In this document: positions 1,367 to 60,153 of the stretch, piece after piece | How the letters are laid out: each line of letters starts with the position of its first letter | How positions within the stretch are numbered: the stretch's first letter is position 1 | DNA from: Actinomadura sp. K4S16 | GTDB lineage: Bacteria; Actinomycetota; Actinomycetes; Streptosporangiales; Streptosporangiaceae | Reading direction: 5' to 3' | Length of the DNA stretch: 64,000 nt | NCBI RefSeq assembly: GCF_008327685.1 | Contig: NZ_BDDE01000014.1 | Span: 310,001 to 374,000, forward strand | Program-made: the position numbers and the translations under genes | The notes under the pieces: generated by a model | What the model was told of the DNA's origin: nothing | Databases searched by the model: none | What the model saw: the letters and a program-made list of their open reading frames with translations, nothing else

Positions 1367-1440
1367 TGGAGCGGGTGACGGGAATCGAACCCGCGCTGTC
1401 AGCTTGGGAAGCTGAAGTTCTACCATTGAACTACACCCGC
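1367..1440 (-). tRNA. tRNA-Gly (anticodon CCC), 3' CCA encoded
   Basis: Read on the minus strand, the acceptor arms GCGGGTG and CACCCGC pair and the T-arm carries GGTTCGATTCC. The anticodon stem TCAGC/GCTGA encloses loop TTCCCAA, giving anticodon CCC. Discriminator U and CCA are encoded at 1367-1370. The 3' end faces the integrase fragment, fitting use of this gene as an attachment site. A duplicate of the tRNA 3' end (a second att site) was not found within 1-1300. Confidence 0.95.
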
Positions 1441-57448: not shown

Positions 57449-58534
57449 CTAGAGCCAGCCGTTGCGGCGGAAGCCGCGGTAGAGGGCGAAGCAGGCGAGG
57501 GTGATGACGCTGAGGATCATGGGGTAGCCGTACTGCCAGCGGGTCTCGGGCATGTGGTCGAAGTTCATGCCGTAGACGCCGGCGATGGCGGTGGGGACCA
57601 TGAAGATGGCGCCCCAGGCGGAGATCTTGCGCATGTCCTTGTTGTCGGCGACGGTGACCTGGGTCATGTGCGCGTGGAGGATGGGGTTGAGGAGCTCGTC
57701 GTAGGACTCGACCTGCTCGCGGACGCGGGTGAGGTGGTCCTCGACGTCGCGGAGGTACTCCCTGATCTCGGCCGGGACGAAGCGGCGGCCGGACAGGCTG
57801 CGCAGCGGGCCGGCGAGCGGGCCGACGGCGCGCTTGAGCTGGATGACCTCGCGCTTGAGCCGGTAGATGCGCCGGGACTCGTCGGTGCGCTCGGGCGAGA
57901 AGACGGCCTCCTCGACCTCGTCGATGTCCTCCATGACGGCGTTGGCGACGCCGACGTAGCCGTCCACGACGCGGTCGGTGACGGCGTGCAGGACGGCGGC
58001 GGGGCCGAGGGCGAGGCGGCCGGGGTCCTTCTCCAGCTGGCGGCGGACGGGGCCGAGCGCGCCGTGGGCGCCGTGCCGGACGGTGACGACGAAGTCGGGG
58101 CCGCAGAACAGCATGATCTCGCCGGTCTCGACGACCTCGGCTCCACCGGGGCCGCTGGAGACGTAGCCGACGGTCTTCATGACGACGAAGTGGACGCCGT
58201 CGTAGCGTTCGAGCTTGGGGCGCTGGTGGGCGTGGATCGCGTCCTCGACGGCGAGCGGGTGCAGGCCGAAGACCTCGGCGAGGTCGCTCAGCTCGGCGGC
58301 GGACGGCTCGTGGAGGCCGACCCAGACGAAGCCGGCGCTGTCGCCGTCGGGGACGAGCCGGCCGTCGCGCACCAGGCGGACGGCGTCGGCGACGGTTTCG
58401 GTGCTGACGCGGTGGCCGTCGATGTAGGCGGCCCAGTCGATGACCGCCGAGTCGCGGTTCGGAGCCTGCACGCCGCTCGGGCGGCCGCGCGTCTTGAAGA
58501 GCACGCGGCTGGGGCGGACTCGTGTCATGGCCAT
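57449..58534 (-). CDS. corA: CorA-family magnesium/cobalt transporter
   Basis: 361 aa. Cytoplasmic N-terminal domain, long helices (about 150-290) and two C-terminal membrane segments with the selectivity motif YGMNF near residue 320. Forms a pentameric Mg2+ channel. ATG at 58534 behind TAGGAG. The 58589-58705 leader ORF and a 9-bp hairpin precede it; copy R of the 149-bp repeat follows it. Regulation by translation of the leader is a hypothesis. Confidence 0.95.
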   Translation of the reverse strand: MAMTRVRPSRVLFKTRGRPSGVQAPNRDSAVIDWAAYIDGHRVSTETVADAVRLVRDGRLVPDGDSAGFVWVGLHEPSAAELSDLAEVFGLHPLAVEDAIHAHQRPKLERYDGVHFVVMKTVGYVSSGPGGAEVVETGEIMLFCGPDFVVTVRHGAHGALGPVRRQLEKDPGRLALGPAAVLHAVTDRVVDGYVGVANAVMEDIDEVEEAVFSPERTDESRRIYRLKREVIQLKRAVGPLAGPLRSLSGRRFVPAEIREYLRDVEDHLTRVREQVESYDELLNPILHAHMTQVTVADNKDMRKISAWGAIFMVPTAIAGVYGMNFDHMPETRWQYGYPMILSVITLACFALYRGFRRNGWL

Positions 58535-58567
58535 GAGGTGCTCCTAACCCGCCGGCCACGCACGCAG

Positions 58568-58607
58568 CGCGCGCTCAACCCCCGCTGGTCAGCGAAGGGA
58601 GCGCGCG
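58568..58607 (-). promoter_or_regulatory. Hairpin overlapping the end of the corA leader ORF
   Basis: On the transcript CGCGCGCTC (58599-58607) pairs perfectly with GAGCGCGCG (58568-58576); the loop contains CGCTG-ACC-AGCG. The 5' arm lies in the last codons of the leader ORF and the 3' arm downstream of its stop, so ribosomes on the leader would melt it. Confidence 0.65.
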
Positions 58608-58705
58608 AGGGCGAAGGCCGGGCGCCAGATGGAGGCGGACGGAGGGACAGCCCTGTCCGGACTGTGAGGGTTCTCTGGCGAACTGCAAGTATCACCAGGA
58701 CTCAT
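58589..58705 (-). CDS. Putative proline-rich leader peptide of corA
   Basis: 38 codons, too short for usual gene finding: MSPGDTCSSPENPHSPDRAV, then PPSASIWRPAFALARSLR. AAAGGAGGT at 58713-58721 is a nine-base perfect complement of the 16S rRNA end, seven bases before the ATG, the strongest ribosome site in this window. Seven prolines, including one Pro-Pro pair. The stop lies 54 bp before the corA start, and a stable hairpin spans the stop. By analogy with enterobacterial mgtL and corL leaders it could couple corA transcription or translation to leader translation; this is inference. No match is known to me. Confidence 0.55.
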   Translation of the reverse strand: MSPGDTCSSPENPHSPDRAVPPSASIWRPAFALARSLR

Positions 58706-58902
58706 CCCGACCACCTCCTTTCACGCGCCTCGACGGCGGGCGGTCAAGCCCGTCGCAGCCTACCAGCCGATATGTAGGACGCCGCCCGTATCGGTGAGGT
58801 TCACACGCCCCCCGTGTGACGGCGGCCTCACCCCGCTCCATCCCCGTCCGCACGGGGGTTATGCGCCCCCGGCGCGGCGGCGCGGACCAGTAAGCTCACG
58901 AC

Positions 58903-60153
58903 GTGCGAGTACTCGTCCTTGGATCGGGTGGCCGCGAGCATGCGCTCGCCCGCGCCCTGCACCGCGACCCTGCCGTCACCGCCCTCCACTGCGCCCCGGG
59001 CAATCCGGGCACGGCAGAGATCGCGGACAACCACCAGCTCGATCCGACGAACCGCACGGCGGTGGTGGAGCTGGCCACGCGGCTCCGGATCAGCCTGGTC
59101 GTCGTCGGGCCGGAGGCCGTGCTCGTGGCGGGCGTGGGTGACGCCCTGCGCAAGGCCGGCATCCCCTGCTTCGGGCCGGACCGGGCCGCCGCCAAGATCG
59201 AGGCGTCCAAGGCGTTCGCCAAGGAGGTCATGGCGGCGGCGGGGGTGCCGACCGCCGACTCGCGGGTCTGCGAGTCGACCGGGCAGGCGGAGGAGGCGCT
59301 CGACGCCTTCGGCCCGCCGTACGTGGTGAAGGACGACGGGCTGGCGGCCGGCAAGGGCGTCGTGGTCACCGAGGACCGCGACGAGGCGCTGCGGCACGCG
59401 GACGCCTGCGAGCGCGTCGTGGTCGAGGAGTACCTGGACGGCCCCGAGGTCTCCCTGTTCGCGCTGTGCGACGGGCAGCACGCCGTCCCGCTGCTGCCGG
59501 CGCAGGACTTCAAGCGCGCCTACGACGGCGACGAGGGCCCGAACACGGGCGGCATGGGCGCCTACACGCCGCTGCCCTGGGTGCCGCCGGGTCTGGTGGA
59601 CGAGGTCATGGCCGCGGTCGTCCAGCCGACCGTCGACGAACTGCGCCGCCGCGAGACCCCGTACGTGGGCGTGCTGTACGCCGGGCTCGCCCTGACGTCC
59701 AGGGGCGTGCGGGTGGTGGAGTTCAACGCCCGCTTCGGCGACCCCGAGACCCAGGTCGTCCTGGACCGGCTGGCCACCCCCGTCGCCACGCTCCTCCAGG
59801 CGTGCGCGATCGGCGGGCTCGACCCGGCCCTACGGCTTGAATGGCATCCGGGCGCGGCCGTCACGGTGGTCGTGGCGGCCGAGGGCTACCCTGCCGCTCC
59901 GGTGAAGGGCGACGAGATCACCGGCCTGGACGAGGCCGCCGCGGTGGAGGGCGCCTACGTGCTGCACGCGGGCACCGGGCTCGGCGGCGAGGGGCAGCCG
60001 GTCGCGAGCGGCGGGCGCGTCCTGAACGTGGTCGGCACCGGACCCGATCTCGGCGCCGCCCGCGCCGCCGCGTACGAGGCCGTCTCCAAGATCGGTCTGC
60101 GCGGCTCCCACCACCGCACCGACATAGCGCTGAAGGCGATCTCCATGCCATGA
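58903..60153 (+). CDS. purD: Phosphoribosylamine-glycine ligase
   Basis: 416 aa, GTG start. N-terminal VRVLVLGSGGREHALARAL, ATP-grasp core (VVKDDGLAAGKGVVVTEDRD, NTGGMGAYTPLPWV) and the GARS C-domain (GWHP-type LEWHPGAAVTVVVAAEGYP). Second step of purine synthesis. The 368-bp upstream interval is shared with the divergent corA unit and holds its leader ORF; the purD promoter is not evident. Confidence 0.97.
   Translation: MRVLVLGSGGREHALARALHRDPAVTALHCAPGNPGTAEIADNHQLDPTNRTAVVELATRLRISLVVVGPEAVLVAGVGDALRKAGIPCFGPDRAAAKIEASKAFAKEVMAAAGVPTADSRVCESTGQAEEALDAFGPPYVVKDDGLAAGKGVVVTEDRDEALRHADACERVVVEEYLDGPEVSLFALCDGQHAVPLLPAQDFKRAYDGDEGPNTGGMGAYTPLPWVPPGLVDEVMAAVVQPTVDELRRRETPYVGVLYAGLALTSRGVRVVEFNARFGDPETQVVLDRLATPVATLLQACAIGGLDPALRLEWHPGAAVTVVVAAEGYPAAPVKGDEITGLDEAAAVEGAYVLHAGTGLGGEGQPVASGGRVLNVVGTGPDLGAARAAAYEAVSKIGLRGSHHRTDIALKAISMP

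Follow-up and report, generated by a model that had tools for sequence, protein, structure and literature searches.

The corA locus and its leader ORF

The window, which here means the whole 64 kb stretch of Actinomadura sp. K4S16 DNA that was analysed, carries on its minus strand a magnesium transporter gene preceded by a short upstream open reading frame (uORF) with a strong ribosome site. The features of the locus are as follows.

57449 to 58534, minus strand: corA, 361 aa, a CorA-type Mg2+ transporter with YGMNF (Pfam CorA, E 1.2e-55; sequence)
58541 to 58546, minus strand: corA Shine-Dalgarno sequence TAGGAG (sequence)
58568 to 58607, minus strand: perfect 9-bp inverted repeat, CGCGCGCTC (58607-58599) and GAGCGCGCG (58576-58568), with the uORF stop in the loop
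58589 to 58705, minus strand: leader uORF of 38 codons (translation), codons 2-16 under purifying selection
58711 to 58721, minus strand: uORF Shine-Dalgarno sequence AAAGGAGGTGG, also the 5' strand of predicted helix P1 (sequence)
58757 to 58765, minus strand: extended -10 box TGGTAGGCT, candidate corA promoter (TGNTANNNT motif across leaders)

The nearest named corA loci all belong to Actinomadura, 11 of the first 12 being 79-92% identical and that of A. alba 73%. The uORF product is MSPGDTCSSPENPHSPDRAVPPSASIWRPAFALARSLR followed by a stop, and the ribosome site GAAAGGAGGTG lies directly 5' of the uORF, with 8 nt between GGAGG and the ATG. The stop codon occupies 58591-58589, from which 54 nt lead to the corA start at 58534. 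A preliminary description of this DNA had reported a 38-codon ORF with seven prolines, a strong Shine-Dalgarno sequence at good spacing, and an ORF end inside a perfect 9-bp hairpin 54 nt before corA; each of these was found at the positions it gave. Nine-base-pair repeats of such kind have 90 start positions in this GC-rich window, and the hairpin alone is not remarkable there. The genome contains a second CorA match (G000:C11:202375-203397) with one in-frame TAG, and upstream of it there was neither such a leader nor a covariance-model match.

Of 51 leaders, 48 have the TGNTANNNT motif at a distance of 39-60 nt on the 5' side of the uORF ATG, against a background of 0.0023 per 75 nt, and none has an extended -10 box between uORF and corA. 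Because the box sits upstream of the uORF, the corA transcript very probably includes the leader, and the concern raised in the preliminary description, that the transcript might begin downstream of 58589, is not borne out. The interval 58400-58950 holds no classical -35/-10 promoter pair and no intrinsic terminator. As for Rho-dependent termination, the uORF stretch 58671-58594 shows a mild C-over-G excess, which 3% of random stretches reach.

Conservation of the leader across genera

The leader DNA was found by BLAST in all 36 genomes of the genus, the window's own included, among 59 genomes searched; any match at all was seen in 39 of the 59, and the three outside the genus were short matches. 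Its presence in 36/36 genomes makes conservation far beyond chance, so that the loss of the ORF in relatives, which the preliminary description had named as the finding that would speak against it, was not encountered. The conservation set comprised 49 loci, of which 42 were distinct; the uORF was intact by script pattern in 40 of these 42 (L042 and L113 show it separately), with lengths of 32 to 43 codons. GGAGGTGG in the uORF Shine-Dalgarno sequence is invariant across the 47 rows of the Actinomadura alignment A2, and L135, which is not in A2, has GGGGGGTGG as its uORF ribosome site with the leader present.

Selection on the peptide is confined to its beginning. Across 51 distinct Actinomadura-like leaders, codons 2-16 had a mean pairwise dN/dS of 0.28 as against 1.05 in the remainder, where the pairs are not independent and the leaders were chosen for intact ORFs. 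As judged by these substitutions, amino-acid selection is limited to codons 2-16, with none seen after codon 16. A chance ORF is ruled out by this selection together with the conservation in all genomes of the genus. Codons 2-16 are also unusual in their usage, as 8 of 15 in the window end in T versus 24 of 1216 in three GC-rich window genes. Codon 8 is AGT in 42/51 Actinomadura-like, 32/33 other-genera and 35/35 Streptomyces leaders. Residues 2-6 include an acidic residue as well as a proline in 51/51 Actinomadura-like and 33/33 other-genera leaders, as well as in 34/35 Streptomyces leaders in a set whose pattern partly requires proline and in 35/41 Streptomyces-type rows with a looser pattern; L190 has neither within these residues. 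The proline richness emphasized in the preliminary description is confined to Actinomadura rather than common to the family of leaders, as the median number of prolines per leader is 7 for Actinomadura-like leaders, 4 for those of other family genera and 1 for those of Streptomyces, where the median uORF length is 15. These medians rule out proline stalling as a general principle.

Similar leaders precede corA in other lineages. In other genera of the family, MSSGDPSSTCSRT-like leaders were present in 33/33 loci (L139-L171), and in Streptomyces and Actinacidiphila, one group of CorA rows had MDRSRPCSST-like leaders upstream in 41/41 cases and its sister group in 0/45. Neither a similar uORF nor a match to model R1 (below) was seen at eleven CorA paralogues in the order (L172-L182). 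Among the CorA copies L215-L254 of the class no similar uORF was seen, an absence that is not established because 24 of the 40 regions have no CorA anchor; one of these 24, L254, does carry the Streptomyces leader. In a CorA protein tree with 134 members, of which 83 rows were labelled as leader-bearing, the label required 3 changes versus 41 in shuffles, and one of the three was L135, which itself bears a leader. The leader-bearing rows form two groups and not one clade, namely 42 of the order and 41 of Streptomyces type plus L190. Comparison across genera shows that the uORF start, the strong Shine-Dalgarno sequence, the N-terminal peptide and the position before corA are kept. The link to the Streptomyces leader is weaker, as it rests on position, ribosome site and a P(C/S)S(S/T) core. 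In further family genera (L183, L184 and L185), CorA is preceded by MSQPPST or MSRPPST uORFs behind a site of GGGAGGTG or GGGGAGGTG type, and these uORFs are possibly a reduced relative of the leader.

Two covariance-type models were built, R1 from other genera, with the window's own genus excluded, and R2 from the Actinomadura group. R1 finds the window leader at 58626-58726 (E 3.8e-6) and, among 78 sources, matches 53/53 that bear a leader and 0/25 others (10 of Streptomyces type including L190, 11 paralogous and 4 other), with one extra weak reverse-strand match in L126. R2 finds 33/33 other-genera leaders (worst E 0.0036), with three weak matches elsewhere. The Streptomyces-type leader is found by neither model. 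Since the models score sequence and structure together, their matches show relatedness and not the fold itself. Searched over 121 genomes of the order at E<=0.01, R1 gave 63 matches in 62 genomes, one per genome in 61 of them and two in G108; 61 of the 63 stand 71-308 nt upstream of a same-strand CorA match. The remaining two lie over long open frames and appear to be chance matches. A leader common to several Mg2+ genes is ruled out by this distribution. At the same threshold R1 missed at least two leader-bearing genomes, G111 and G011, among the 20 listed of the 59 genomes without a match.

Over 246 genomes of the class at E<=0.1, R1 matched in 13, ten of them within the family. One match outside the family (L284, G197:C310:206-295, minus strand, E 2.8e-4) is a leader-like MSSGDPDHSRCTA uORF whose downstream gene runs off the contig. 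Another (L286, G227:C37:70887-70948, minus strand, E 0.058) combines a strong ribosome site with a short uORF that begins MSPCH and lies about 190 nt ahead of a protein resembling DUF1003, a domain with a possible link to Mg2+. DUF1003 was rejected as a second leader target. The domain occurs in 28/30 genomes, and a scan of the loci L287-L316 gave six unrelated short ORFs. An MgtE model matched 0/30 relatives.

Predicted RNA structure of the leader

The helices considered here are listed below, and all are predictions from folding and alignment.

58631 to 58642, minus strand: anti-Shine-Dalgarno sequence CCGTCCGCCTCC within the uORF, forming the 3' strand of P1 (P1 cells paired 99.1%, 46 distinct rows)
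58675 to 58698, minus strand: helix P2, CTGGTG (58698-58693) with CGCCAG (58680-58675), over codons 3-11 (folding, sequence)
58647 to 58665, minus strand: hairpin P3, ACAGTCC with GGGCTGT (folding, sequence)
58548 to 58624, minus strand: helix P4, CGCCCGGCC (58624-58616) with GGCCGGCGGG (58557-58548), one of two competing folds
58527 to 58559, minus strand: hairpin P5, GGCCGGCGGGT arm over the corA start codon with the corA Shine-Dalgarno sequence in the loop (group consensus)

Consensus folding of the Actinomadura leaders (45 of 51, with L040, L042, L043, L132, L136 and L137 dropped) pairs the uORF Shine-Dalgarno sequence with CCGUCCGCCUCC inside the uORF, forming P1, which encloses P2 and P3. 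The same junction plan, with other sequences, was obtained by consensus folding of 33 leaders from other family genera. In single-sequence folding of the window, the leader (58750-58534) had a z of -3.99 and the junction a z of -3.52, and the predicted unpaired probability of the uORF Shine-Dalgarno sequence was 0.001. Taken as single sequences, 29/51 Actinomadura-like, 12/33 other-genera and 0/35 Streptomyces leaders gave a Shine-Dalgarno/anti-Shine-Dalgarno duplex at p<=0.05 against shuffles. In alignment A2 (47 of 51 leaders; L040, L043, L132 and L136 left out), 96.9% of cells were paired and 1 pair was changed on both sides; covariation in this alignment is weak, and its score of 0.074 was exceeded by one slid control (+3, 0.099). 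Alignment A1 (33/33 other-genera leaders) had 91.2% of cells paired and a covariation of 0.158 versus 0.131 in shuffles, with 0/500 as high. The uORF Shine-Dalgarno sequence is thus predicted to be sequestered within the uORF by a three-way junction, P1-P3. The expectation of the preliminary description that a leader ORF and RNA structure precede corA holds, and its emphasis on the 9-bp hairpin gives way to the predicted P1 junction as the key structure.

Two folds compete for the RNA just before corA. P4 and P5 are mutually exclusive because both use the arm GGCCGGCGGG, an arrangement that would suit a switch. Both arms could be located in 49 of 51 leaders; of these 49, 29 gave P4 a probability of 0.5 or more and 12 gave P5 a score of 0.5 or more, and P5 on its own was predicted at -17.6 kcal/mol. 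The Actinomadura consensus fold has the local hairpin P5 over the corA start and P4 absent, and in the best single fold of 58750-58534 the shared arm pairs with the 5' end instead. P4 was therefore no longer taken to be the one fold ahead of the Actinomadura corA. When the 5' arm of P4 was masked as it would be by a ribosome, the corA start codon became less open in only 25/49 leaders and its median openness moved from 0.43 to 0.48, a result that gives no consistent output. For the window's own leader, the corA Shine-Dalgarno sequence had a predicted openness between 0.52 and 0.83, depending on which codons were masked.

In other genera, P4 joins the uORF end to RNA adjoining the corA ribosome site. 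The P4 alignment A3 (30 of 33 leaders; L139, L140 and L167 dropped) had 85.0% of cells paired and 24 cells changed on both sides, with 0/500 shuffles as high and all slid controls lower, for a structure that was derived from the same alignment; further pair types were no better than shuffles (423/500). In Streptomyces, the consensus fold pairs GCUCUUCC with the Shine-Dalgarno region, and an alternative partner is the downstream GGAAGAGC, whose columns are 99% identical versus 63% for the spacer. Of the eight GCUCUUCC/GGAAGAGC pairs, seven hold in at least 32/35 leaders and one in 31, with one double change each at two pairs.

Comparison with known leaders

Rfam contains a magnesium-sensor family and an M-box family. 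At curated cut-offs the whole window gave a tRNA match alone (a tRNA gene at 1370-1440, minus strand), with no magnesium family and no M-box. Relaxing the threshold to E up to 10 for 58300-59000 returned a trypanosome snoRNA and Chloroflexi-1, and eight relatives at E up to 1 returned two microRNA matches, one of them on the L254 leader, all far below cut-offs. A known RNA family is ruled out by the lack of a relevant match in window, region and relatives, and a known small-protein family by the lack of any match of the uORF product in NCBIfam or Pfam.

The closest analogies are enterobacterial. In Salmonella and E. coli, as described in the sections of PMC11552253 on these leaders, the mgtL uORF lies inside a three-way junction whose stem A sequesters its Shine-Dalgarno sequence, and the corL uORF belongs to a structured leader whose folds exclude one another; the N-terminus of MgtL is a destabilizing EPDP motif of acid and proline in the corresponding part of PMC11282234. 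The corA leader resembles mgtL/mgtA in being a Mg2+ transporter uORF with N-terminal acid and proline and a predicted three-way junction, but its peptide and RNA are different, have no Rfam match and precede corA. It shares with corL the kind of downstream gene and a structured uORF leader with competing folds (predicted here), whereas corL is described as carrying one proline in the conserved part of its N-terminus and as poorer than mgtL in acidic or proline residues (PMC11552253, same sections). For mgtQ/mgtB of Salmonella, the relevant portion of PMC8092293 reports a very short ORF with early acidic codons and alternative stems, one hiding the transporter ribosome site; mgtQ requires Asp2 and Glu5, and its proline codon acts solely via base pairing. 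Acidic codons near the ORF start and alternative stems (predicted here) are common to both leaders; mgtQ differs in lying between two operon genes and in a proline codon relevant through base pairing only. In all three enterobacterial cases, efficient uORF translation is opposite to transporter expression, as far as these parts of PMC11552253 and PMC8092293 go.

Among actinobacteria, the M. tuberculosis rv1805A leader is likewise a Mg2+-related leader with a conserved uORF, but its sensor is an M-box riboswitch, according to the part of PMC12810186 concerned, and the corA leader has no M-box match. Actinobacterial amino-acid leader peptides also combine short leader ORFs with hairpins (main text of PMC1262725 and PMC8079986, in which the words corA and magnesium do not occur); unlike them, the corA leader has no run of a single regulatory codon and no U-run terminator, and these classical attenuator features were absent from the uORF and from 58400-58950, respectively. 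Among the matches listed, titles and abstract openings on corA leaders, on corL/mgtL, on Streptomyces uORFs, on mycobacterial magnesium uORFs and on actinobacterial leader peptides described no such leader (subscription literature lay largely outside). The kind of leader is known; the lineage, peptide and RNA appear new.

Proposed mechanism and alternatives

The element is very likely a regulatory leader. Because it is kept across many related genera, it is probably a transporter-level switch read by ribosomes, and we give about an even chance to the reading that it is a conserved cis-acting actinobacterial corA leader in which expression would be set by the travel of ribosomes through the uORF. 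By analogy with the enterobacterial leaders, Mg2+ is, by a little, the probable signal. In the scheme we propose, the uORF Shine-Dalgarno sequence would be hidden in the predicted junction P1-P3, and one arm before corA would have two alternative partners, the uORF in P4 and the corA start in P5. With enough Mg2+, ribosomes would finish the uORF and corA output would be low, as in mgtL, corL and mgtQ. At low Mg2+, ribosomes may fall off in the first codons, where acid plus proline and rare T-ending codons occur, after which the RNA would adopt its other state and corA would be expressed. Either Rho or the corA start site may provide the output step. The more tentative part of this scheme is that early drop-off serves as the sensor, a possibility suggested by the same analogy.

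Translation may instead be coupled to corA through a different signal. A translation-coupled attenuator could respond to other translation stress, be it slow decoding at rare T-ending codons, an antibiotic that targets the ribosome or inefficient rescue of paused ribosomes, and higher Mg2+ uptake would then be the remedy. The dominance of rare T-ending codons in codons 2-16 fits such a signal, as does the AGT kept at codon 8, which acid/proline destabilization does not require; the acid plus proline trait is kept too, however, and 61/63 model matches stand before a Mg2+ transporter gene, and we consider this alternative unlikely. It is less probable again that the three-way junction RNA senses the ion directly, in the manner of a riboswitch, with translation of the uORF from its hidden start site merely the output. 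The nearly complete predicted pairing of the uORF Shine-Dalgarno sequence and the recognition of the leader across genera by R1 and R2 would agree with a direct sensor, but the amino-acid selection on codons 2-16 would be needless for a pure RNA sensor and no relevant Rfam match was found. A functional microprotein, for example a CorA regulator, is very improbable, since the purifying selection on its first 16 residues is set against a dN/dS near 1 over the remainder and lengths that vary from 32 to 43 codons, with a Streptomyces median of 15.

Returning to the ribosome-read Mg2+ switch, a broader reading is that actinobacteria evolved a family of ribosome-based Mg2+ sensors independently of enterobacteria, built from an eight-to-sixteen-codon acid/proline peptide in rare codons and a site-hiding three-way junction, dedicated to corA and extending from Actinomadura to Streptomyces. 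We regard this as a reasonable possibility that falls short of an even chance. In the sources cited above, as far as they cover it, the idea of Mg2+ sensing through ribosome stability so far rests on enterobacterial mgtL, corL and mgtQ. If the reading is true, the same plan before corA in a distant phylum, without detected homology, would be an independent natural replicate of that idea. The leader idea is directly testable in Streptomyces, and many genomes gain a conserved small ORF and a leader RNA that lack annotation.
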